Assembly: GCF_000003815.2 (NCBI RefSeq)
Contig: NC_049995.1
Location: 8,875,802-8,939,801, forward strand
Direction: 5' to 3'
Source: Branchiostoma floridae
Taxonomy: Eukaryota; Chordata; Leptocardii; Amphioxiformes; Branchiostomatidae
Length of the DNA: 64,000 nt
Positions within the stretch are counted from its first letter, which is position 1. Each line of letters opens with the position of its first letter. This document shows, one piece after another, positions 6,781 through 62,045 of this stretch. A model generated the notes under the pieces. That model saw only the letters and a list, made by a program, of their open reading frames with translations, ran no database searches and was not told the origin of the DNA. Made by a program: the position numbers and the translations under genes.

Positions 6781-7450
6781 CTGTAGATGATGCAGCAGCT
6801 TTGGACGCCATTACATGGCTATGTGATTCCAGAAGTTGTGGTCTTTGTACTTTATCGACAATCCCCCAAATGGAGTAGTCGCGAGCCGATAGCTACCGAA
6901 CACGCCGTATCGTCTGATTCTGACGTAATCCCAGTGGGCACGACCGACTGGTCGCCAAGCAACGGCGTTGGACGTGAATCTATGTAAAATACCCCAAAGT
7001 CCGCTACATCCTCTCGTAACGCCCCCATAAAGCCACCTCCTTGAAGGGTTGTTTGGGGTGACGTTCTGTTTTTTCACGTCAACATGTGTACGCTGTTTTC
7101 AAATCATCCAATGGAAGAAAAATCCGCTCACAACACACTTTGCTAGACGGTTGTTCGGATTTCAATGACAGAAAATCGTCCAACGTAGTTTTTCATAGAG
7201 GGAAGTTCCATTGATGCTGTAGTGGTGGAGTCACCAGCCGTTAGGTTTCCTGAGGCAAAACAGGGATGGTCTATTCGATAAGTAAAAGGGAAGCCTTGTA
7301 ACATTTTAAGCATCTAAGTTAATAATCTATTGCAATTAAAAGATCGTAAAATGCCATAATTGGCAGTTAGTATGAATTACCATAAAAATGACGACTGAAT
7401 TGTCTAAATACTGTCATCACTAATCAGCTGTAGTAACATCGATTTCCGGG

Positions 7451-7789
7451 GCTACAGAGCCCGACCGGAGCTACAGAGCCCGACCGGAGCTACAGAGCCC
7501 AACCGGAGCTACAGAGCCCGACCGGAGCTACAGAGCCCAACCGGAGCTACAGAGCCCGACCGGAGCTACAGAGCCCGACCGGAGCTACAGAGCCCAACCG
7601 GAGCTACAGAATCCAGCCGGAGCTACAGAATCCGGCCGGAGCTACAGAGTCCGGCCGGGGCTACAGAGCCCGGCCGGAGCTACAGAATCCGGCCGTAGCT
7701 ACCGAGCCCGACCGGAGCTACAGAGTCCGGCCGTAGCTACCGAGCCCGACCGGAGCTACAGAGCCCGGCCGGGGCTACAGCCCCGACGG
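7451..7789. repeat. 19-bp minisatellite, about 18 copies
   Basis: Unit GCTACAGAGCCCGACCGGA in head-to-tail copies with a few substitutions (CCAACC, TCCGGCC). The right end is slightly more diverged. Confidence 0.95.
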
Positions 7790-17639: not shown

Positions 17640-18750
17640 TGTTTCTTGTACATCATTCCGCCACCCATAAATGAAAGAAATAACGATGAGCTACGTATAC
17701 AAACAAGCCTAAATATTAAAAACTAAGTGATTATAGATACAGAAAGCACTGGAAACCAATTTTCTAGTTGAAGTTCTTCATTTTAGCTAAGTACTTGTTG
17801 TAGAGAACCTTCTTTCTCATTCTGCCACCCACAAAAGAAATGAATAAGCCTAAATCTCGCAAGCTACGTGATTATCGATGTAGAAAACACAGGAAACCAT
17901 GCAAAGTCAGTTTCGTAGTTGGACCTTCTAAGCAGAGAATCTTCTCTCTTATTATACCACTTACGAAAGAAAGGAAGATGTGTTATAAACAAGCCTAATT
18001 CTTACAAGCTAAGTGATTATAGATGTACAAAGCCAGGAAACCATGCATAGCCAGTTTCCTAGTTGGGATTTTTAAGTAGAGAACTTTCTCTCTTTTTATA
18101 CCACTCACGAAAGATGGAAAGATGGGCTATAAACAAAACTAAATCTTAAAATTTAAGTGATTATAAATGCAGAAAACAAAGGAAACCATAGCAAGTTTCC
18201 TCGTTGGACTTTCCGTTTAGCTCTGTAGAGGACTTTCTTTCTCATTCTGCCACTCACGAAAGAAAGAAAGATTGGCTATAAACAATCCTAAATCTTAAAA
18301 TCTAAGTGATTATAAGTGCAAAAAGCACCGGAAACCATAGTCAGTTTCCTATTGGGACTTTCTTTTTAGCAAAGTTTGTGTCATAGAGAACATTCTCTCT
18401 CATTCTACCACCCACAAAAGAAAGAAAGATTGGCTATAAACAAGCCAGAAAGCAGAGGAAATCATAACACGTCTTCCTTACTGGACTTATTTTTAGAAGA
18501 TAATGTGCCGTAGATATCCTTGTCTCGCATTCTGCCACCCACAAGAAAGAAAGATGACCTCTAAGTGATGACCAATGCCAAAGATACCGGAAACGACAGC
18601 AGACGTTCCTTTCTGGGCTATCTGTGATTTACTATGTGCTGTAGACACGTTATTTTTCTGTTTCTGTCGCCCACAAAAGATGCTAATGCCCAAAAGCACC
18701 GGAAACCCCTACAGACTTTAATTCCTAGACTATCTATCTGTCACCCACAG
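17640..18750. repeat. Satellite-like tandem array, 130-160-base unit
   Basis: About eight diverged units marked by ATTCTGCCACCCACAAAAGA, TAAGTGATTATA, CACCGGAAACCAT and AGTTTCCT..TTGG..TTT. Unit starts are near 17655, 17818, 17952, 18094, 18242, 18401, 18529 and 18660. Confidence 0.85.
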
Positions 18751-22381: not shown

Positions 22382-23490
22382 CAGGGCTCGAAATTCGGGA
22401 ATAGGTTCGCTAGCTGGTGTATCAAAGCTACAATTAGAGCGCATAGGACAAATTGGTGCACAATATAGTAGACACTATTTACAACACAAATCTAATTGCC
22501 TCTTTCAGAGCTTCAATATTAAATTCTATGGCTTCACTTCAAAACAAAAAACCAGTACAACAAAGGATTACTGTCAATACTATGCTGTATACCATCGCAA
22601 TTTAACTTTGACCTATGCAAATATCAAGGTGTACCAGTGCACCCAAAGTACAATCAGGTGCACAACTCCAAGTTGTGCACATTTACCCAGCATTTCGAGC
22701 CCTGGCTGCATGTATAACAAATCACGACATAGATAGCTATATCGTCCCTGTAAGGCTTATACTAAGGGATCTAGACAGATATTACCCTATGGAGATGTCT
22801 AGGTGTACCAGTGCACCTACAGTAAGATTAGGTGCACAACTCGCAAATTTTGGGCGCACAAAAGTGCACAAATATCGAGCCCTGGATGCATGTATAACAA
22901 ATCACGACATAGACAGCTATATCGTCCCCGTGAGGCTTATACTAAGGAATCTAGACAGATATTACCCTATGCAGATGTCTATGTGTACCAGTGCACCTAC
23001 AGAAGATTTGGTGCACAACTCGCGAATTCTGGGTGCACAAAAGTGCACATATATCGAGCCCTGGATGCATGTATAACAAATCACGACATAAACAGCTTTG
23101 TCATCCCCGTATGGCTTATACTACTGGATCTAGACAAAAAGTACCCTATGTAAATGCCTAGGTGTATCAGTGCACCTAGAGTAATATTAGATACACAAAT
23201 CACAAATTTGGGGTGCACAACAGTGCACATATTTTGAGCCCTGAACGTATGTATAACAAATCACGACATAGACAGCTTTGTCGTCCCCGTATGGCTTGTA
23301 CTAATGGATCTAGACAAATATTACCCTATGTAAATGCCTAGGTGTACCAGTGCACCTAGAGTAATATTAGATGCACAAATCACAATATTTCGAGCCCTGA
23401 AGGCATGTATAACAAATCACGACATAGACAGCTATGTTGTCCCCGTAAGGCTTATACTAATGAATCTAGACAGATATACGATGAAGCCAT
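22382..23490. repeat. Tandem array of about 180 bases derived from a hAT-like MITE
   Basis: Begins with CAGGGCTCGAAATTC. From 22620 there are five units of about 178-180 bases, each GGTGTACCAGTGCACC..GTGCACAA..CGAGCCCTG followed by ATGTATAACAAATCACGACA and TCTAGACA. Each unit thus holds a MITE 3' end plus its flank. Open frames through it are repeat artefacts. Confidence 0.85.
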
Positions 23491-43458: not shown

Positions 43459-46400
43459 CTAGAAAACAAAATGTCCAAGATATCTTAAAAACTGGTCATG
43501 CCAACAAGGTTAACAGTTTGTCGGTGACTGGATTTGAAATTGAATTGATACACTGTACTTGAGCATTGACGAATTTTGATGAGATTATATGTTTACCAGT
43601 TTATCTGTGTAAAATATGATTCTGGCATATACAAAGTAATTTACTTACGTCGTTGAATTATATATCTTGTATTATTTTCTTTAAGAATTAATGTCTTGTT
43701 TTTTTGTCTTCTGGAAGCTAAGGGGTGAACGTCTCAACAGAATTTTTTCATATTTAGTACAAAAACCATTATTAATATATGGTATCTGAAGGATCCTTGA
43801 TCAAAATTACGTCAGAATAAAGTTAACTGGCGTTGCATTGACTTCTGTTTGTATATCAGCCTATATACCGGATGGTATCCTTATATACGCGGTCATGGCC
43901 TTATATGATTACTACCATTACTGGCCGACAAGTACACCATTCTAGACCCCAACGAGACACATAATCTACCGAGGCCGACAAGTACAATTGTCTACGTCAC
44001 TGATTTACCTGCGTAAGACACCTCTGTAGCTGCGCAACACATCATGCTATGTGTGTGTTGCGCAGCTAAAGTAGTGACGTAAACAATTGTACTTATCGGC
44101 CACGGTACATTACGTTCCGGCGACGTGCTACCACGTTCCCGGTATATGTTCCGTACGTACCTGTATCTGCCCAGGTTGCCCCGTACTCTCCATCCGACTC
44201 GCCACGTTAACGGTGTTCCCCCAGATGTCATAGTGAGGCTTCCTGGCGCCGATGACCCCCGCCACAACAGAGCCTTGGTGGATACCTGCAAACGGATGTA
44301 ATTAGTTAAAGAATGATGTTAAAACCAGACGTTCTGTTGCAGTATCATAGAACGCTAATATATTCGAATGGGCCCCTCGTCTCGGCAATAGCTACCCAAA
44401 TGACAAATATTAACAGGTACCGCTTCATGAGTTTTGTTGTCCACAAACACACAAGCGTACAATTGACACACGAAAACAATCTTCTTGTCGGTGATAAAAC
44501 TGACCAGTACAAAGCTATTCCGGTACAAAACCAGTTTTTCGTCTTGGACCTGATAAAATCAGTGGACCGGACGTTGCACCTATTAGAAGATGAACAGATT
44601 ATATCGGCAGGCGTTCATAACCTAGTACCTGGACCTGGTCCTCTGGACCTGGATCGTACCTGTAACTGAATTTTCCGTATCGGTACCTACCCCTAGCTAT
44701 AGTGTGTATAGATTAAGACTTAATCACAGGAAATCAAAGACCTACCTATTCTCAAGAGGAAGTTGTTGAAGGACTGGTAGTTGATGTTCATCAGGGCCTC
44801 CTTTAGAGCGAGTGCAAAGTCGGCCAGATCCGCTAGGTGTTTCAGTCTCACCAGTCGGTCAGGGCTCTGTATGGAGGTATTAAAACAGAATCGTTACCAA
44901 CACCTTTCGGTGTATAAGACTCTGTAGTCCGTGAGCTACACATGACCACTACAGCAGAGGGTAGTCTACTGGTAATGGTGTATGTTCAACTTCCACAGTC
45001 TTTCCTAGATGCTGATCTTGAGAAGCAGTTTTTGAATACAGGAATGAACGTCATGCTGGCTGTGATATTTTGTCACTTCAAATCTTGTTGCGACGTTTAT
45101 GGTGTATCTCTTGAAAAATTACCCATCCTGTTTTTGCCATATCCCAGTATTTCTTTGCAGTCAGCAGAGGATTCACTTGCTGTGGCTGAAGTTGCAAAAA
45201 AAATCGAAAAAAGAACGTTTACTAATGTCGTAGAATACCAAGTCGTTCCCAAACTAATTATAAATGTACACACACACAAATGATGAATTGTTCGGTACAC
45301 ACATGTACATAGATCTTATAACGAAGACAGAGGATGCCACCGATATATTAGAATCCTAGGAGAACATTAGAACTTGTAGAAAAGAAAGCTATTATATTTT
45401 CAGAACCAAGGACAGGCATCCTCCTACGCAGGGACATCCAACAGCCAAACCGCCTATCTGGATGTACCCTGCTCTTTCAACCGTCACCCTTAGTTCCTGA
45501 CTGCCCTGCTTATGAATATTAATGAGCTTACTCTTACATATGCGAGACCCGTTTTGAAAACAGAAAGGCCTATTCTCTGATTGGCTGACAACTGGTTTGG
45601 AGGGGGGACGTCCACAGGAACTAAGAGCGACGGTTGAAAGAGCAGGGTACATCCAGACAGACGGTTTGGCTGTTGGATGTCCCTGCGTAGGAGGATGAGG
45701 ACAGGTGACAACATGATAAGTCCTGTGCAATGATGAACCTACATGCGCCATGTTGTCGTCAGGGTTGAGTCCCGAGGCGGCCATGTAGCAGCTGCCGATG
45801 GTTTTGATCTTAGTGATGCTGCGGAACTTCGGTTTACTCAGGAGCTGCAAAAAGAAAAAAAAAATGAAAGGAGCGTCATCACTAGGAACGGCCATCTCAA
45901 TTTATAAAGCGTATCAATAGCAATACGTGGCCGACTGTGTCTAATATCAACCCAAACATTATCAAAGTCGTTTTAAAAGAATGTGTATCACAATTAAACT
46001 GATACTAGAACTGGTACAAACCGAGAGGGGGCTCTGAATGCAGCAATCTAAATAACGGCACGTTGCGTTGTAAAAATGCCAAAGCATTACACGATAGGAT
46101 CATTTTGACGAACACCAAGAGCCATTGAGATACAATGGATGTCGTGTACAAGCTATTTCATGAGCGCTCTTTTTGATGTCTGGTGTCCTGGCCGGCCGAC
46201 TCCCCTAGCACACTATTCCCTCTATGTGTCTAATTTCTACTACTGTATTCCGCGGAGCCTGGAAGACGCTAGATGTTAACATACACAGTCCTAAGTGTGC
46301 CGTTGTATGATGTCCTGAATAGACATCACTGGAAACTAATTTGCTCAATGATGTATTAGACTGGTTAATGCCCATTACCGCATCAAAGTCGTAGATGATC

Positions 46401-49400
46401 TCGTTGAGGAATCTGAGACACTCAATGCCGGAGTTGTTCACGCTCTCCTCCGTGTAGAAGTCGGAGAAGTTCGGGATGGACGCGAACAGGACGCCAACTT
46501 CCTCATAGGACTGGCTATATAACTCCTGTGATATTAGCATGAAAGTTTATCTGTGTTGGTAAATGGCATTATAAAGACACCAAACCTAACCTAACGAACA
46601 CTGCGAATAGTTGGCACATTTTTGTATTTTGACTTTATCCAACGAAACAGAGCGTCCCGGATCGCGCGGAGAATATATGTGTAGAGATGGAGGGCGACAC
46701 AGGCTATCTGGCACCTACGACTCATTGCTGCAAGTCACGTGTCTCCAAGTCACGTTCCGGAAGCTGCAGCAGACCGCAGACGGGTCCATTCCGTCAGCTG
46801 AAAATTTGGGTAAGTCCCAACTATTCGCAGATAGCGTTGATTATGTAAAAGTTATTTTTTTCATAACACCTGCACAGATTTTTGTCTGTTGTCTTTTCTA
46901 ACAGCTTATAACATAGAAGATTCTCCTTGGATAATATATGGCGGAAGGTAATGTAAAATCGCTGAGATAACAGTATATTTCAATTGTTGAGAGTAAGTAT
47001 TCTCACATTGTTAACCCATTTGTTATATGCCTACGTATCTACAACATAGACTCACAGTTACCAGATCTTTCTTACATTGGCTTTGCACAATTTATTTCTA
47101 GCTTGCCGTCAGCGTTCATGAATGTATCAATAGTGGATAGAAAAGGTTAGATAATATTTTTGAGAATAAAATCACCTCGTCCTTCCGCTTGACCCCGATG
47201 AAGTGCGTTGACACGTGGGGAGGGAGGATGTTGTTCACAAGATCCTCGTTTTGTTTCCTGATCTGCCCGACCTCTTCACGCTGCTTAGTGGTCTAAAGAA
47301 ACATTTAGGCAGAGCAAAAAAATTCCACAGCGTCTATTATTGCGTATTCTTCTGACATGTAATAGCCTTTATTGCACATTGATGCCCTATCAAACTAAGT
47401 ACAGGTATATACATTTTAGATTTGATTTGATTTGAATACATTTTAGCTCGTTTCTTCGTAATGTTAAAAATGTAGCTTGAGATGTGTTTGTATAATTTCG
47501 TTTGATCAAAACTCATAAGAAAATGAATTTTTTCAACACTAGACAAAGATCAAGTGAGAGAACTTTCCTATAACATGGCTAAAAATATACAGCAGCCGAG
47601 ATTTATCACATTTATCTATCTATCTATTAAGAAATACACAAGTACATCTAAAACGAAACCTCAAGTTCCCAATACTCACCTCCATCTTCCACAGGAAGAG
47701 AAGCCGTGTCGCACTTTCCATCTGTCAGAATAAGAAATATTAATCTTTGATACGTATGATCCAATATTTGTCTGAAAATCAAAACGGTAATTTAGTGATT
47801 TGGAATGAAAGTGTTCTGGACAACTGTGTTGCAAGGCTAGTGTAAACATGTCATGTGTGGCGCACATGTTAATAAGTGCCGTGTGCAGGCATGTGTGCAC
47901 CGTGTGCAGGCATGTTCGTGTCGTGAGGAAACGTGCCGTGTGCAAAATCCCCTTTCCCACCTGTCTGCAGAAGAGAATGAGACAGATGATGACAACATAG
48001 AGTGGAAGTTGCGTGTCGTGTGCAAGTGTGTTTGCCGTGTGTGTGTGTGCCGTGTGCAAACATGTGTATCGTGTGCATAGACCCCCATCCCTACCTGTCT
48101 GCAAATGCGTAAGAGACAGATGGTGATTATGGAGAGACTGACGCAGTGTTTTGGATTTTGCGTGTCGTGTGCAAGTGTGTGTGTGCCGTGTGCAAGCATA
48201 TGTGTGTCGTGTGCACAGACCCCCTTCCGTACCTGTCTGCAGATGAGTAGGAGACAGATGGTGATGACGGACAGACTGACGCAGAGCTGCGCTGCAGGCG
48301 GAACAGGATCCGGGCTGTCCGTTGAGCTGAGAACCAAACAAGAGAAGAATACATGTTTATCAAATTCTATTACCTATAAACCAGAAATAATACGAACTAC
48401 ACTCGTAACAGATTTATCCAACACTACATATGGACAGTTTGTGCAATAAACTGATCCCATAGTCCCGTTCAACTCTTTTAAAACGTAAAAACTAAAACAC
48501 AAAAATTCAAATATTTGATTAATGCAATCACTCTCTCATTGGGAGAATCGATAATTGCTATTCTCTCATTGGTTGAACTGCTAATTGTGATTGACAGCAG
48601 GATTGGTCTATTGACGAAACTTACTTTCCCGTGAAGTTCTGATTGACACTTCTTGATATTCCGAGTCCGCCATTTTCCAGAACGAAACTGACAAGGCACG
48701 TGACAGTGGTGATGACGCACATCGTCAGAAACTTGGTCACGTGACTGATGTGCATCTGTTGAAAAAATGAGTCATGAAAATCATATCGTGATCAAACATG
48801 ATAATTTGGAGAAAAGCAACGTAACAATTCTGATATGTGATCATATGTGGTTATTCTATGCTATGATCGATGCAAGAAAGAANNNNNNNNNNNNNNNNNN
48901 NNNNNNNNNNNNNNNNNNNNNNNNNNNNNNNNNNNNNNNNNNNNNNNNNNNNNNNNNNNNNNNNNNNNNNNNNNNNNNNNNNNNNNNNNNNNNNNNNNNN
49001 NNNNNNNNNNNNNNNNNNNNNNNNNNNNNNNNNNNNNNNNNNNNTACCCATCTGAGTAATGAGTCTAATGTTGTAACGTGCTCGAAGCAACTGACCACTA
49101 CTCGAACAAGGCTCCCCTATTTTACGTCGTAGTGTATTCTAGTAATTCTTACTGCATTCCGGATATCCTTTGGCCACATTCGGGCAGGATTCGAAGTGGC
49201 TTGCCGTTTCGGTTCCCCATCGAATGAGATACGAATGTTTCGAATGATGTTGTAATGCCGCAGAATGCGGTCCTAATGCAGTTAGAATAGTTGGAATACA
49301 CTTAAAATACACTTTGAATGCCGTTCAATATTTCTCCACTTCAAATGCACCTCGACAGTTTTTAACATGTCAAAAACTTTCGCGCCAGCCAAAAGAACGG

Positions 49401-52400
49401 GCACGAATAGCTGGAATGCAGTAAGCATTTCTGGAACACACTAAGAATTGCCAGGAATTGCCAGGAATAGAAAAGAATTTTCATTCCGACGGCATTCCGG
49501 CTGATTCTTGCTCTCGTGTGAAGGGGGCTTAACGAAAGACAAATCAAGTTCCAAACAGGATGCCCTTCCCCTGATTTGAGCCTGGGTCTCTTGGTAACCA
49601 ACTAATATGAGCTAAACTTTGCAGCAGCTACCATGGTACCATTTGAGCTAACTGGATATTACAATTACTGATGTAATACATACCTGCATAGTGAGTCCAG
49701 ACAGCATGAGGACTATTGCGAAGACAAAGTACTGTGTGTAGGGACAGCTGAGGTCCAGTCTGTCCAGGGGCGGGGAGAACAGCACAGGTCCTGTCACATC
49801 ACAGGATAGCTAAAAAAAAAAGGCAACACAACATTTAACGGAAAATTATGCAGAGCGTTTTCATCGCTGACTNNNNNNNNNNNNNNNNNNNNNNNNNNNN
49901 NNNNNNNNNNNNNNNNNNNNNNNNNNNNNNNNNNNNNNNNNNNNNNNNNNNNNNNNNNNNNNNNNNNNNNNNNNNNNNNNNNNNNNNNNNNNNNNNNNNN
50001 NNNNNNNNNNNNNNNNNNNNNNNNNNNNNNNNNNNNNNNNNNNNNNNNNNNNNNNNNNNNNNNNNNNNNNNNNNNNNNNNNNNNNNNNNNNNNNNNNNNN
50101 NNNNNNNNNNNNNNNNNNNNNNNNNNNNNNNNNNNNNNNNNNNNNNNNNNNNNNNNNNNNNNNNNNNNNNNNNNNNNNNNNNNNNNNNNNNNNNNNNNNN
50201 NNNNNNNNNNNNNNNNNNNNNNNNNNNNNNNNNNNNNNNNNNNNNNNNNNNNNNNNNNNNNNNNNNNNNNNNNNNNNNNNNNNNNNNNNNNNNNNNNNNN
50301 NNNNNNNNNNNNNNNNNNNNNNNNNNNNNNNNNNNNNNNNNNNNNNNNNNNNNNNNNNNNNNNNNNNNNNNNNNGATGCGTGCACATCGTCTTGCTTGGT
50401 GAAACACGAACCATTCAAAGTTAGGTCATTCCGTTTTGAAAGCTGAAAAAAATTCCGTTTTGAACCAAGGGCGAACCAAGCTTCGCACAATGAAAGGAAG
50501 CGGAAATGAACTGAAGCGGAACCGGATATGATATACTAACCGTGTTGATGAGTATCCCGGCGATCACCATGGTAACAGCTACCAGTGTCCAGGTGTTCCG
50601 GATGTACCTGTTTCCGTCTAGCCAGTTGGACACCCTCACCAACATCGCAGGAAAGTTCTGTACAACATAACAGAATGTATTCTGTTATACTGTACGATAC
50701 AATCAAAAGATGAGTCAGTAATAACGTGTAATGTAGTATTTTGAGAAAGCCATTTCTATGTAATGTAAAATAAGTATAAATGTAATGTAAAAATAAATAT
50801 GATGTAAAATAAGTATACGTAATTAGCAGACATAAGTTTGTCCCATTACTCCCATAGCTTTACGAAAATTTAAAAAATGTATACGGACTCTAATCCATAT
50901 TTCGTTATTGTACACAGAGCAACTACTATGCTTTCTACAAGTATTACAATATCCAATATATGAGCTTTTAGTAGTTATAGTACGTCTTGTATGTACTGTA
51001 CCCTTTGGGCTCAAAGTGTGTGCTTTTCAGTGTCTGATCAAAGACACCAGTTCGTCTCATGCCATCCAACGTTAAACTCCAACACTGTTTCATCAATGAA
51101 CACAAGAACATGTTTTAAGATTGATACAACGTACCGTGTGGAAAATAGTGGCTGACGTCACGATCACCATGGAAACGATACCCACCAGACAGATGACGAA
51201 GGCGATAACCGCCATAATGGTCCTACATGTAGATGATCAAAGAGAAAGTGTCAGTTCATGTTGTAATCAATTTTGACGTTTTGATCACAGAATAACTCTA
51301 ATAGGGATAGTCCAAATATCTTGAGTTGGTATTTAATACTTGTTCAATGCATCCACGGTATAATACATATCCGTTGTTTTCAATGAAAGAGTTTTTAAGG
51401 ATATAAAGTCGACGGACGATGGTTTCAAACTGCAGTAGTTTCATGATATTGCAGTTTCAAACAACAGTTCCCAACTAATTGGAACCAGGAGCTCAACTGT
51501 GAGGCTGCTACCAGTAAAGCTACTTGGATATGCCCACACACTAAAAAACGTTCTTTGAACAAAGTCAAAATCCTCGATTCAGGATTTTTTTGCATCAGGC
51601 GTGAAGGAGGCAGTGTACTTCAGAGCCCACCGGCCCACCTTCAACAGAGACTGGGGGCGACATAGACTTTCTGGTACTTATGACCCTTTCATGCAAAGAG
51701 TGTTGTGTTCCTGACGTCACTGCTGGAGATATAAGGCTCATTCTGTGAACAAGGTCTACGGAATTCATCCGAAAATTTAGAAGGTAAGTCCCTATAGTGT
51801 TAATTCCAGTGTTGGTTGTAAAGTGTTAGCATTTGTCTGTAATGAATAAGAAAATATGTGATATAAAAGCCTCGGATTCAGGCTTACCGCGCAATAACTG
51901 TGATCTGGACCAGGAAGCAGAACACCAGGATCACAGCGAAGGCGACCAGGCAGACCGCGCACTGCTTCTCTCGTTCCTTCCCGAACTTCATCTCAAGGTC
52001 AGCGTCCTTGAATCTCAAGGTCACGGGGTTGACCTTGCCGTCAATCCTACGAGCGAAAAGAACTTCATTTCTAACTTTTTACCAGTACTGACGATACAAT
52101 AACAAGCTTGTAGAGAAGGTGTGGTGCAAACTGCAAACTGCATGTGTTGAAAAGTCTGCAACTACAGCAATTGCACACGTTGCAGTTTACACATGTGCAC
52201 GGGACAATAGTTCACAAGTGCACATGGCGCCAACGAAACCTTTGTCGGTAAGTGCGTTTCGTCTGCAAATCCCAAGCTCAATGTTTCTCTCATCTCCTAC
52301 ACTACATGTTCACGTTACGTTATGTTCATGCTCAACAGAACGCCACGCTTGCGTTTTGCATACGGCTTATACTTTGCACACCACCCTTATCAAGCACACG

Positions 52401-55400
52401 ACACACATTACAAAGTGACACTTTGCATACGACCTTGATCCTTTGCACAGCACTCGTATCTTGCGCTATGCACACGACACGCATTACACGGTGCGACTCT
52501 CACGCTTTGCACACAGTCTTGATCATTTGCACACCGCCACAACACATTACAAAGTGACACTCTCACGCTTTGCACATGGTCTTCATACTCTGCAAAATCA
52601 CGGCGCGTGCGACCCTTTGCACACGGTACTCTTAATCCTTTGCACACTGCCCACATCTTGCACACGGCACTCAAACATTTCAGAGTGAGGCTCTCACGCT
52701 TTATAATCCTGCTCCTCCAGTGTTTTTCTGACCAGGTTGTTGATCTCTTGCTCGTTTCGGAGTGCCCGAATGGCCAGACGTTGGAAGCACAGCCTCGCTG
52801 TTGGCTTCTTTCCATCGTCCTGTAACAATGTATCATTATTTAATCTGATACTTTTACATTGAAATACACACTCTTCTGCTTTGATATTTCTCCAGACTAT
52901 GTCGATTTTTTGCTACCTTTTGTGGAGCCATTTGGTGGTAATCTAAGTAAAATGCAATGAATGATGTACGAAAACGTTAAATTATTTACAGCAGCCACGT
53001 AATGTTAAGCCAACACACAAGTCAACTAACACTGGGACAACAGCACATGAGCACTACACTAACGGCACATAACAACGCATGCGCACTGTACCAACAGCAC
53101 ATGCGCAATGTCCACATGCTTCACGACACTTTTAATCGTTCTACCTGACCCACCACTTTCTTGACGCCGCCATTTTTTATCATTATGCTACTCCAGGCGG
53201 ACTTCTTCGGGAAAGAAGCCGCCAACTCCTGGTCAGCCGTGATTGAAGACAGAAGAAAGCATAAGAAAAGTGACAGTGATCTCAAACCAGTTTAGCTCCC
53301 TGAAGAGCTATTCTTCCACCAGGGCTCGAAATACTGGGTGCATGTGCACCCAGGTGCACCCAAAATTGGAGATGTGCACCCAATATTTTTCTGTGGGTAT
53401 TTTCTTAGGTTTGTGTATGTAAAGATATCAAAGTATACTAGTATACATCATATTCTTGACATCTAAGTGTTAGAAAGATAATAAAAATGTCTATCATTGT
53501 ACTTATTTAAGAATTTGATAACTTGTAACTTAGTTTTATTACTAGGTTATTACTTCAATTTATTAAATAAGTGGTGCACCCAAAAATGGTGCGCCCAATT
53601 TCTTAAGCTGGGTGCAGTAGTGCACCTAATCCCAAAAATGAATTTCGAGCCCTGTTCCACTGATCATGACATGAAAGACAGACAATATGCACAGTGGTTA
53701 GCTATAGGTTTCTTGTACAGGGGAAATTCTCATTAAGTGAAATGAACAGATGACCACTGCTTAACGTCCCGCTCTAGTAATATGGGCTGCGGCCTAGCTA
53801 TAGCTCCATGGATTCAGCTCTAAGTGAATCGTAATTTGATCACAATATTACTAACATTCCAGCCCATTAGCTATCGGGCACCGACTTCAATGCAACCTAA
53901 AATTTGACAAGGAGCTCAACGAATTTCATCGATAAGGAACTGAAATCTTTTTACGCTTTGTCTGTTCTGTTCTCTTTTCAATGAACGGTGTGGAGACAGG
54001 GATGTCGGTAGAGAAAGGGGTGAAGCCAGCACCTGTCCTTCAGTCCTTTGAAGGAATTTTGCATCTGGGGACTGAAAAAAGTTTTCCCCATTCCGTCCCC
54101 TGGGACAGACAAAATTGATATGTAACGATATAAAAAACTGAAACCCATGTGTTGACCTTTGTAAAAAAAAAAAGGCAAATAAATGGATGGCTTGTCCCTA
54201 CCCTTTTCTCTGTTCTCCGTTTGATGAGGAATGTCTTGATACCACGTGACTTGAGGTAGTCGTTCCGGGAAGCCCCGTTCCCCTGCTCCAGTTCAAACTC
54301 TCCATTCAGACAGTCGTGCGTGGCCTTGGAGATGTGAACTCTCCTACAGTACGAGAAACAATGTGCGTTCGGTTTCTTATCAAGGATAAAACATGAATCA
54401 GTACCAGTAGTATACATATGGATAAAACAATGAAACATGACAAATTTCTCTTCTTACCCATACAGCTTTGCAACCCTTATAGTCTCACAAAATATTAACA
54501 CTGAGGATGTGAGACAATACTGGATTGTGTATGTCACTAACTCCCTTTATAGTGTACGAAACTATATATTCTTTTCGTACAATTGTTCTTCCACATCTTC
54601 TTGGAACATTTGTAATAGAATGCGAAATACGTTTTGAACAATGAGTAGAACAAGGACAAATTTGCCACGTTTTACGATAAGAAAAGAGGCATTATATGGC
54701 ATAAGTACCTTCGTTCTGTTTTTCTTTGCAGTATATGGCCTACATTTGCTCATTTTGCAGACTCTTTGTACTATTCAGCGTATGATCGCAATCTTTTTTT
54801 TTAAAAACGTACATAAATTGATGCACTAACAGTTACCATCCACATAATTATGTCAGCGTGGCCTTGGGACTAAGTCATAAAGAGAAAAGGAGATTGACTG
54901 CAGCCCATAACAGCATTCAGCACCAAGGACAGGGGTGGGCAAAGGTTGGTGAACGGAGAAGGTCGCATCATGTTACCTTAGCAACCCTAGTAACCAACGT
55001 CGCTCTCATGCTCAACATGTCTGCACTCTTCATCACAACAGTTCAAGGTCATTTCAATGTCAGGTCAAGGTCCTTTCACACTTTACGGCTTCCACTACGA
55101 AGCAGTTTATCAAGATGCTCATAGTATTAACAACTAACAACAAAGATTATAGGATACACCTAGTGCTAATCTGCGGTGTTGAATAAATTATAGGGGATTA
55201 AAGGATTGCACGATATCAGATTAAAGGCGCTATAAGTACAAAAACCAAAAGATAGAAGAAGGCCACACATGCATAACAATTTAATACTTTAAAGCCTCCT
55301 CTAATGGTTTTACTAGGTGTATGTATACTTAAATCATCGGATCTTTTTAATAAAATCAACCACCTATATGCATGCCCTAGCATTTTTCTGAAGAAGAGCG

Positions 55401-58400
55401 CGGCTTGCAAAGTATTTTTTTATTTGCTTTGGGACAGACGAGAATATGTGGCACTGCACTCAAGTGTGTAACTCATTTTAACAGTGCCGCGTACGTAGTA
55501 CAGACAGAAGGTAAAGGTAGTATTTTACCTCTCCGACCGAAGTCAGGTCCCCATTTTTACACATGGGAAAAGTGAGGAAGGTCGTGTTAAGTGCCTTTCC
55601 CATGGCACAGCGTCGGGGGCACGGCGAGTATCAAACTCGGGACCTCAAGGTACCAAGCCCATCAAAGGACCTCTAGGTTCTGAGCCCAACACTCTACCAG
55701 TTACACCACACACGACGCCAAGTATCTATGAACAGCACTTACCCAGGCATCCCTCCGGACTCCATCTGGTTTGCAAGAGTGACATCTGTCGACCAGACGT
55801 CGAACTGCCACCGCTTCTGGCCCAGCACCCCCGCCAGAACCGCGCCCGTGTGGATCCCAACGCGCATGTCCACCGGAGATCTCGTCTTTTCTCGCACTTG
55901 CCTGCGAGAACAGGAGGTGTCGATCATGTACGTGAGTGAACGACATGGCCAAGCATATTTTCAAACACATTTTTCTCACGTGCTCGCCAACACAAGGCAG
56001 ATATATCTGCCATGTTTTTTATGACCTCAGAATTTTACTTTTTTTCCAATATTGCCTCTTATAGCTACTATTAACAAAACAAAAGTAACTATAAGAAAAT
56101 ATTACTTCACATATACAATCCAAAGCAATCCTTCCATTCTACGATCTAGTCATGGTAGCCATCTTTTCCTAAACCCTCATGTCCTAATTCGTATCAAAAA
56201 CATGCATACTTACGCAAAAGCTTCCACAATATTCAGTCTGATGCTAGAGTGTCTAACATATATACTAGTACTTACAAATACGATGCAGTATACCACGTCC
56301 CTTCTACGTACTTGTACAAAATTTTACGTTATATATGACACCATACTGCCCAAAATGTTACCAAGATGCAATTACTTTTGCACGGCAGCACTGCATGGCA
56401 CTACGACATAACGCTATCTCACCTTTTTCCGAGGGGTAACTTACATCCGTTGTGTTTGAAAACAGGGTACTTAGGAACATAAAGTCAACGGTCGGTGTAA
56501 TAGTTTGAAAATATAGTAATCTAAAGTCACCGTCCATTGACCCGATATCTCCTAAATACACAGTTTTTAAAACAGTATGTATACCCCGCAGATCTATGTT
56601 TATATGTTGGAATAGATAAAGGATGATGATGATAAAGGCGTTAGAGTTATTCAATATATGCATGTTCAAACAGTACTTACGCGATGGCGTCTACCATATC
56701 CAGCCCCATGTTGATGGAGCAAACAGCGTGGTCCTTTCTCGGCACAGGTACACCACAGATGCAGTAGTAACAGTCGCCCAGGATCTTAATACGCAACTGG
56801 TTGTTGATCTGTGTTCGCAAAACGTGGGAATTTATTGAATTCTACACATTTGGCATTTATTACACATGATTACTCCTAAACGATATGGCTAATGTGTAAA
56901 ATTTTGCCGTTACACTACGAGTCCGAGTTGTAAAAATACTTAGAGCATCTAGTTTCGAAGACGATGCAATGAATTATGGAAATATGCAAAAAGAGAAATG
57001 GAGAAAGCGACAGCCCTGGATAAGTTTCATTTGTTTTTTGTCTTGTCCAAACGTTCTACAAAACTATATCAATCATGTTGTTTCCCATGCCTAGGAGACT
57101 TTAGTGCCAGTTACTATGCACTGCAAGAAAACTCGAATGTCTGGGAATTTCTGGACCCTGACACGCCCGTGAAACTTTACATGTCCGTGATATATGTTCA
57201 GGAATGCACATAATGAGGTATGAAGGACTGGGACACACCAGATGGGGAAATTCCTGTACACGGCCCGGACGTGTCAAATTTCACGAGTGTCATGGTCTAG
57301 AAATGTGTCAATTCCCGGAAATTTGAGTTTCCGTGCAGTGATGACGTTATGCGTTTTGTTTGATGATCAGGTCATAGAAGATTTCCTTACATCGGCGAGT
57401 TTGTCGAAGCTGGCGAAGAGCTCGTTGAGAATCTTGACCAGTTCTTGAGCAGACACGGTGGTGGAGATCGCCGTGAAGCCCACGATGTCAGCAAACAGGA
57501 TGCTAGAAACGAAAGCAAAACATTAGGGAGGGCGTGTGTACGCAACAAAAGAACCCAAGAAAAGAGAAGAGTAGGAGTGAGCCGGTGTGTTCGACTGAAA
57601 ACGCTAAGCCTTAGGTCCCAATTGGAAAAAGAGTCCCTGCCGGGGAGTTCACGGGCTGTTTTGGCACTTTCGGGCTCGACCCCTACGTGGCTCAGCGGGA
57701 CATCTTGCAGCTCCCGGAGTATTTGTGGACACCGAATTGAATTTAAGTCGGACTTAAAATCAACCCGCAACCCGGTAAGAAATAGACTTTGTGACCTACC
57801 AGTGAGGTACACCTTGAAAAAGCGTCATGTAGGTGCTTCGTTTTTGATCTTACGTCAAAGGTTTCCTTTTGGTTTCATGCAATTACCACCATTAAAATGT
57901 AGTCACACACGCAACAAATCTTATGGTCTCATGCCAACGTTATCGTGACGTTTCAAGGTCTCTTACCTGACGTTTTCGTGCCGTTTGATGTACATCTGTT
58001 GGAACTGCCTGTCCTCTGTGTCCTTCCTGCTCATGCCCCTCCGCATGTCCTCCGCCACGTGACGCGGCAGGATGGACATCAGCAGCTGCTCCTGTAGGAC
58101 ACAAGAAAGTCGCTAGGCTTTAGGATTTGTGGTCGTCGTAGAAAGCTTAGTATTGAAACTAGTATTGTTTTTTTAATGAAAATGTATACAAAAATATTCA
58201 TGTAAAGCGTTGACAGAGAGGCAGACAGCCATAGGAGCAAAAGCAAAACTCCACATCTTTCAGGTTAAGTAAAAACGAGGAAAGTAGACAAACTAATGCA
58301 GATGATACTTTTTCAGCACCAAGGACAGGCAAGCAACGTTTGGTAAAAAAAGACCGTAAATGGAGAGGGTCGGTTGCCTTTCAGCATCGATGAGGCTTCA

Positions 58401-60064: not shown

Positions 60065-60960
60065 CATGTAGCCGGTATAACCGCCCTTCAACGTACCACA
60101 CCAGCTTCTGTGTCTGTATCTGTATCTGTATAGCCGATATTACCACCTTCAGTGTAAAACGCCAGATTTGAATTCTGCATCTGTATATATCTGTATAAAC
60201 CGCGCTTCGGCGTAACACAGCAGCTTCTGTATCTGCATAGCCGGTATAACCGCACTCCGGTGTAACACAGCAGCTTCTGTATCTGTATAGCCTGTATAAC
60301 TACCCTTCAGTGTAACATACAAGCTTCTGTACCTGTATAACCTGTATAACCACCATACGGCATAACACACCAGCATGTGCATCAATATCTGTATACTTTA
60401 TAGCCGGTATAACCTCCCTTTGGTGTAAGACACCAGCTTCTGTATCTGTACATGTATGGCCGATATAACCGCCCTTCGGCGTAACACACCATCTTCTGTA
60501 TCTGTATCTGTATAGCCGATATAACCGCCCTTCGGCGTAACACACCATCTTCTGTATCTGTATCTGCATAGCCGATATAACCGCCCTTCGGCGTAACACA
60601 CCATCTTCTGTATCTGTATCTGTATCTGTATATCCGATATAACCGCCCTTCGGCGTAACACACCAGCTTTGTATCTGTATCTGTATATCCGATATAACCG
60701 TCCTTCGGCGTAACACACCAGCTTCTGTATCTGTATCTGTATCTGTATGGCAGGTATCTTGGCAACCATCATTCGAGTCTGATGCATTTCAGTTGTACAT
60801 TATTAAACTATCAATCTAATCACTTCGGTCGGAATATCTAAAAAATTCTAATAAAAGAATTCAAAAGAGTCCATCCCTACCCAGCATGATTATATTACGT
60901 GTAACACATTAACTTCTGTAGTTGTATCTCCATAACAGGCATAACCACCGATAGGTGTGT
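60065..60960. repeat. Minisatellite, 50-65-base unit
   Basis: At least ten units of GCCGATATAACCGCCCTTCG, GCGTAACACACCA and (TGTATC)n. Regular from 60065 to 60752, then sparse. Pieces reappear at 61201-61245 and 62046-62070 on either side of the gap. Confidence 0.92.
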
Positions 60961-61257: not shown

Positions 61258-62045
61258 NNNNNNNNNNNNNNNNNNNNNNNNNNNNNNNNNNNNNNNNNNN
61301 NNNNNNNNNNNNNNNNNNNNNNNNNNNNNNNNNNNNNNNNNNNNNNNNNNNNNNNNNNNNNNNNNNNNNNNNNNNNNNNNNNNNNNNNNNNNNNNNNNNN
61401 NNNNNNNNNNNNNNNNNNNNNNNNNNNNNNNNNNNNNNNNNNNNNNNNNNNNNNNNNNNNNNNNNNNNNNNNNNNNNNNNNNNNNNNNNNNNNNNNNNNN
61501 NNNNNNNNNNNNNNNNNNNNNNNNNNNNNNNNNNNNNNNNNNNNNNNNNNNNNNNNNNNNNNNNNNNNNNNNNNNNNNNNNNNNNNNNNNNNNNNNNNNN
61601 NNNNNNNNNNNNNNNNNNNNNNNNNNNNNNNNNNNNNNNNNNNNNNNNNNNNNNNNNNNNNNNNNNNNNNNNNNNNNNNNNNNNNNNNNNNNNNNNNNNN
61701 NNNNNNNNNNNNNNNNNNNNNNNNNNNNNNNNNNNNNNNNNNNNNNNNNNNNNNNNNNNNNNNNNNNNNNNNNNNNNNNNNNNNNNNNNNNNNNNNNNNN
61801 NNNNNNNNNNNNNNNNNNNNNNNNNNNNNNNNNNNNNNNNNNNNNNNNNNNNNNNNNNNNNNNNNNNNNNNNNNNNNNNNNNNNNNNNNNNNNNNNNNNN
61901 NNNNNNNNNNNNNNNNNNNNNNNNNNNNNNNNNNNNNNNNNNNNNNNNNNNNNNNNNNNNNNNNNNNNNNNNNNNNNNNNNNNNNNNNNNNNNNNNNNNN
62001 NNNNNNNNNNNNNNNNNNNNNNNNNNNNNNNNNNNNNNNNNNNNN
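61258..62045. other. Assembly gap
   Basis: 788 N. The left edge is a poly-G run, and both edges carry pieces of the CCGGTATAACCGC minisatellite, so the gap probably falls in a collapsed array. Confidence 0.99.

Follow-up and report, generated by a model that had tools for sequence, protein, structure and literature searches.

Tandem duplications that span an exon-intron boundary are known from disease, as in human MSH6, and have also given rise to new introns, as in a potato RdRp gene and the cases cited with it (PMC9818763; PMC4974935). As described in the first of these accounts, the MSH6 variant c.3936_4001+8dup adds one extra copy of a 74-bp segment, 8 bp of which are intronic, and is classed as pathogenic. 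The downstream donor is used, outnumbering exon skipping 7:1 in one carrier, and the carrier data in that account contain no normal transcript from the duplicated allele (PMC9818763). The potato account, which also cites the AGGT model of Rogers, describes an intron gained by tandem duplication across an intron-exon boundary, with RNA-seq support (PMC4974935).

Here we describe an array of this kind in a membrane adenylyl cyclase gene of the amphioxus Branchiostoma floridae, located within a 64,000-nucleotide stretch of contig NC_049995.1 (positions 8,875,802 to 8,939,801), which we call the window. Measured against these published accounts, the array is a three-copy, donor-side case of the known boundary-spanning duplication. 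As in MSH6, part of an exon together with its donor and the adjoining intron start is duplicated in tandem; the amphioxus unit, however, is about 138 bp long, is present in two extra copies that have diverged, leaves the modeled part of the gene intact, and follows its first donor with about 84 nt of intron rather than 8 bp (PMC9818763). It shares with potato RdRp and the AGGT model the property that a duplication across a boundary plants ready splice signals in the copy, although the potato event duplicated the 3′ side of an intron and the amphioxus array, as read in the DNA, the 5′ side (PMC4974935). A third likeness is to Drosophila ratchet points with RS-exons, wherein acceptor-like sequence adjoins a donor and is followed by a stretch ending in another donor. 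Those described in PMC8605326 lie mostly in long introns and were demonstrated with RNA, whereas the amphioxus example is a sequence-level arrangement in a 511-nt intron, and its best acceptor-like CAG sits four bases from the donor. No cyclase with a tripled TM12 exon end appeared among the literature matches listed.

Exon organization of the host cyclase

The host gene occupies the minus strand of the window and appears to encode a membrane adenylyl cyclase, as single exons of both catalytic halves match Pfam family PF00211. The matching exons, at 57391-57504 for C1 and at 46379-46525 and 44161-44274 for C2, point to two class III cyclase catalytic domains in a single gene. A nine-exon spliced translation running from TM7 to the start of C2 is alignable to both references used, matching AC8 (8buz) with E = 2.3e-51 over TM7-C2 and AC5 (8sl3) with E = 6e-42, chiefly from TM10 onward. 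The second six-helix membrane block of the protein matches AC8, the modeled portion of the gene being the TM7-C2 part.

The exon whose end is repeated, here called exon n, precedes the RL.FLW helix in the alignments to AC8 and AC5, and its first base completes an Asn codon opened in the TM11 exon. It is flanked by introns of 298 nt and 511 nt, and the two further copies of its end sit in the latter. The coordinates of these features are collected in Table 1.

Table 1. Features of the repeated exon end and neighboring parts of the host gene, in window coordinates
Feature	Position	Strand	Length	Remarks
Previous exon (TM11)	48625..48755	minus		last residues NQNFTG, then AA opening the next codon
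Exon n	48326..48233	minus	94 nt	last outer loop and TM12; ends ICRQ, phase 0, CAG/GTACGG
Copy 1 of exon end	48233..48286	minus		taken as functional; donor GT at 48232
Unit 1, intron half	48149..48232	minus	84 nt	CA-rich
Copy 2 of exon end	48095..48148	minus	18 codons	donor CAG/GTAGGG, GT at 48094
Unit 2, intron half	48003..48094	minus	92 nt	matches unit 1 at 72/79 aligned bases
Copy 3 of exon end	47961..48002	minus	14 codons	donor CAG/GTGGGA, GT at 47960
Unit 3, intron half	47870..47960	minus	91 nt	matches unit 1 at 57/76 aligned bases; more decayed
Exon n+1	47680..47721	minus	42 nt, 14 codons	phase 0 at both ends
Exon n+2	47176..47292	minus	39 residues	
Exon n+3	46379..46525	minus		start of C2 catalytic domain; PF00211, E = 1.6e-09
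Extension of exon n via donor 2 (hypothetical)	48095..48232	minus	46 codons	open in frame
Latent cassette (hypothetical)	47961..48098	minus	138 nt, 46 residues	from acceptor-like CAG of copy 2 to donor of copy 3

Two further features of this region were recorded. A run of 162 Ns (48883-49044) interrupts the intron preceding the TM11 exon, approximately 560 nt from exon n, and the intron separating the TM10 exon from the TM11 exon contains imperfect inverted repeats (40 nt, 83%; 28 nt, 82%) at 49127-49446. When viral contigs were scanned with the exon n+3 peptide, 14 pattern matches emerged, none of which was confirmed.

A tandem duplication across the exon-intron boundary

The initial annotation had reported three tandem copies of the TM12 exon end, each with its own donor. 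This holds on the minus strand, where ACAG followed by GT occurs three times, with the last exon-like bases at exactly the positions given there (48233, 48095 and 47961). The annotation treated the repeat as an exon end only; the three copies stand, yet the repeated unit is larger and also includes 84-92 nt of CA-rich intron start, with unit spacings of 138 and 134 nt. The units are adjacent and in direct order, each with an exon-derived and an intron-derived half, and the array is therefore a three-copy tandem duplication across the exon-intron boundary.

Several comparisons set this junction apart from others. When the 40-nt donor junction of exon n is searched within 1500 nt, further matches of 35/40 and 33/40 are found. 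Our controls were drawn from 14 donor junctions (one of which, C1d, was placed one base off) and 8 acceptor junctions of the host gene. Among the 13 control donor junctions, 12 top out at 20-22/40 and one at 27/40, and the 8 acceptor junctions top out at 18-22/40. Random 40-mers (five of 60 were dropped because Ns lay nearby) reach at most 25/40 in 52 of 55 cases, and three reach 33-37. The only other match to the unit in the window is a weak one at 52615-52680. Alignment scores likewise exceed the maximum of 500 shuffles, clearly for the exon halves of units 1 and 3 (52.5 versus 38) and for the intron halves of units 1 and 2 (119 versus 66), and by thin margins for the intron half of unit 3 against unit 1 (70.5 versus 63.5) and unit 2 (71.0 versus 65.5).

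Units 1 and 2 are the closest pair. Their identity is 0.87 in the exon half (47/54) and 0.91 in the intron half, whereas either unit compared with unit 3 gives 0.74-0.79 (exon halves 33/42 for units 1-3 and 31/42 for units 2-3; intron halves of units 2-3, 63/83). This pattern suggests that the duplication step producing unit 3 is probably the older. We envision that a segment of about 138 nt, reaching from the interior of exon n across the donor into the CA-rich intron start, would have been duplicated in two steps, an older one giving unit 3 and a later one giving units 1 and 2, with slippage or unequal exchange as the likely route.

It is very improbable that the copies are merely errors in a draft scaffold. 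Gaps do lie nearby, namely the 162-nt N run noted above and one of 502 nt at 49873-50374, but there is no N inside the array, and corresponding halves diverge by 9-26% over aligned bases, which is a great deal for sequencing error or allelic collapse.

Splice signals carried by the copies

All three donors resemble working sites. Using a human donor and acceptor matrix, whose scores differ in kind from MaxEnt scores, donors 1, 2 and 3 score 8.1, 8.9 and 8.3, respectively, within the range of eight other donors of the host gene (4.1-11.5). Predicted pairing with U1 gives -7.3, -11.2 and -10.3 kcal/mol (other eight donors, -5.1 to -12.7). In predicted RNA structure, the unpaired fraction is 0.24 at donor 1, 0.13 at donor 2 and 0.16 at donor 3 (mean 0.45).

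Acceptor-like signals are also present. Only copy 1 had been credited with an obvious acceptor, and it is correct that the AGs offering in-phase replacement of exon n are weak; every copy, however, has a pyrimidine tract and a CAG four bases before its donor. These CAGs score 6.1, 5.1 and 8.5 as acceptors in copies 1, 2 and 3, where eight true acceptors of the host gene score 2.1-6.4. For the AG that abuts the donor, the scores are 3.2, 2.2 and 5.6 in the same order, such that the AG/GT of copy 3 rates 5.6 as an acceptor and 8.3 as a donor, and those of copies 1 and 2 are weaker acceptors.

The copies could therefore be imagined to act as paired acceptor and donor sites, either delivering the 138-nt latent cassette into the mRNA or allowing recursive removal of the intron through AG/GT points. 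The CAG scores accord with such a role, as does the cassette itself, which is in phase 0 at both ends, lacks a stop codon, and could be inserted after exon n. Moreover, the order of acceptor-donor, exon and donor is the layout of ratchet points with a cryptic exon as described in PMC8605326. However, 49% of shuffled cassettes are open as well, the ratchet points of that account were described for long introns and the host intron spans 511 nt, and the acceptor-like signal is a product of the pyrimidine-rich helix code that comes free with the duplication. We consider this use of the copies quite improbable.

Reading frames and possible products

From the true acceptor at 48326, splicing at donor 1 yields the expected protein, whose alignment with AC8 and AC5 continues across TM12 into C2. 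The proposal that any of the three donors would splice in frame is borne out for donors 1 and 2 only. Use of donor 2 adds 138 nt that are open and in frame (+46 codons), but donor 3 adds 272 nt, causing a frameshift that meets a stop in exon n+2. Similarly, each copy ends in phase 0 when read by itself, as had been proposed, yet copy 3 does not when read from the true acceptor; because the second spacing is 134 nt, frame is not kept across the array.

The openness of these frames weighs little as evidence of use, given that shuffles of the donor 2 extension are open in 44% of cases and those of the cassette in 49%. A Pfam search at E up to 1 gave no family for either 46-residue insert.

Sequence constraint and hydropathy

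If the copies were retained for their coding capacity, their exon halves might be expected to outlast their intron halves. No such excess is seen, either between units 1 and 2 (47/54 versus 72/79, Fisher P = 0.57) or between units 1 and 3 (33/42 versus 57/76, P = 0.82). All three copies agree over at most 11 consecutive nt, at the splice core, a length that is unremarkable by permutation (P = 0.10). Copy 2 carries three amino-acid changes, including L>H and L>R in the helix, and simulations without constraint in which the frame stays open give as few changes in 13-20% of cases (P = 0.13-0.20). For the five changes of copy 3, the corresponding proportion is 42-55% (P = 0.42-0.55).

The initial annotation further held that hydrophobicity survives the base changes. 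Copies 2 and 3 do exceed base-composition shuffles (P = 0.004 and P < 0.001, respectively), but this is expected from their descent from copy 1. Compared with open unconstrained simulations, copy 2 is indistinguishable from drift (P = 0.74-0.77) and includes His and Arg, and only copy 3 offers marginal agreement with the claim (P = 0.036-0.040, for 14 codons tested after copy 3 had been seen). Because copy 2 behaves as drift and the result for copy 3 is borderline and post hoc, we rejected kept hydrophobicity as a sign of function. Mean Kyte-Doolittle (KD) hydropathy is 2.27 for copy 3 and 2.12 for copy 1. In a 19-residue KD scan, the peaks are 1.32 for copy 2, 1.80 for copy 3, 2.43 for TM12 and 1.39 for TM10, and insertion-scale sums over the same windows are 6.9, 5.8, -0.8 and 4.3, respectively. 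Since TM10 itself peaks at only 1.39, hydropathy alone cannot exclude copies 2 and 3 as helices.

These results bear on the proposal that the copies serve as mutually exclusive alternative TM12 exons. It is true that the copies end in RQ in local phase 0 and possess donors, that copy 3 is still as hydrophobic as noted above, and that splicing to the AGs at 48137 and 48090 would replace exon n in phase by open exons of 43 nt (ending in copy 2) and 130 nt (ending in copy 3). Yet these AGs score -6.0 and -4.8, below all eight true acceptors, and the better-scoring AGs at 48098 and 47964 leave 4-nt exons without a helix. Furthermore, copy 2 places His and Arg in the helix, copy 3 spans only 14 codons, and coding constraint was not detected. 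The proposal fits the data poorly, and we hold out hardly any prospect for it.

Donor choice and the status of the copies

The three units, their divergence, their resemblance to splice sites and their frames are read directly from the DNA. That the modeled part of the cyclase is intact and that the copies have diverged favors the interpretation that the array is a passive, decaying duplication in which donor 1 is in use and the spare sites are latent, a reading to which we assign a probability of roughly 70%. It corresponds to the decayed duplicates or decoy donors considered in the initial annotation, which fit best among the three options offered there. Definition of exon n would still rest on the acceptor at 48326 and on the closest donor, at 48232, presumably the one in use, so that the mRNA and TM12 would be unchanged. 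Copies 2 and 3 would then be intron sequence in decay that carries latent splice sites.

Published work on human donor choice bears on this assignment from both sides. In the portion of PMC9225289 concerned with exon definition, a class with flanking introns longer than 250 nt, near-equal donors favor the upstream site, and five minigenes with identical donors used the upstream donor exclusively. The 298-nt and 511-nt introns around exon n exceed that limit and so would place it in the exon-defined class as delimited there. Donor 1 is also predicted to be less paired than donors 2 and 3. Counting against donor 1, both other donors outscore it in U1 pairing and by matrix. The same human study reports that the stronger donor was dominant in 86% of events and that, without the equal-strength filter, most events in all four intron classes prefer the downstream donor (PMC9225289), findings that, as reported there, speak for donor 2. 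The MSH6 case, in which the downstream donor is used and the account lists no normal transcript, is a warning by analogy against assuming use of donor 1 (PMC9818763). In addition, copy 3 is more hydrophobic than approximately 96% of open simulated drift, which counts against a passive reading.

If donor 2 (48094) were instead used in some or all transcripts, 46 residues would be inserted after TM12, ahead of the helix that leads to C2, comprising a His/Thr-rich linker and a weak hydrophobic stretch. The extension keeps an open frame and has a length divisible by three, donor 2 outranks both other donors in U1 pairing and in matrix score, and the published MSH6 duplication provides a precedent for use of a downstream duplicated donor (PMC9818763). 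These points must be balanced against the 44% of shuffles that are open too, the missing Pfam match at E up to 1, and the prediction that donor 2 is more paired than donor 1. Its use would also enlarge exon n from 94 to 232 nt, contrary to the nearest-donor tendency between long introns, and the added helix would contain His and Arg and peak at a KD of 1.32 versus 2.43 for TM12 (though TM10 reaches only 1.39). On balance, we regard use of donor 2 as unlikely. A regulated choice among donor 1, the 46-residue extension from donor 2 and the 138-nt cassette, placing an in-frame spacer between TM12 and the C2-leading helix, likewise seems unlikely to us.

Under the favored interpretation of passive decay, the unused copies would be a natural case of an exon-edge repeat that leaves spare splice sites the cell must ignore, and would allow donor choice to be tested where three sites are nearly equal. 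Were the copies used, duplication of a pyrimidine-rich, helix-coding exon end would have planted a donor together with an acceptor in a single step, and the resulting spacer would be placed at the joint between the membrane and catalytic parts of the cyclase as a splice-born hinge.

Other repeats in the window

A minus-strand segment at 56214-56243, in the intron that follows the C1c exon, matches that exon's end and donor at 27/40; among random 40-mers, 52 of 55 reach at most 25/40 and three reach 33-37. We rejected this site as a second duplicated exon end at 56243, as the wider DNA alignment scores 24 (shuffle 95% point 22, maximum 32) and the protein alignment, also at 24, falls short of its 99% point of 28.

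Four tandem arrays were also observed. One at 17846-18443 has 3.4 copies of units of about 144-149 nt. Another, at 22695-23390, consists of 3.9 copies of 180-nt units with 89% matches; its period is a multiple of three, and plus-strand open frames extend up to 154 aa. At 7446-7780, the 19-bp unit CCGGAGCTACAGAGCCCGA is repeated 17.6 times, and all three plus-strand frames are open over most of its length. Finally, a 56-nt unit that contains CTGTAT sub-repeats recurs about 12 times at 60069-60742, approximately 500 nt from a 788-nt gap at 61258-62045.
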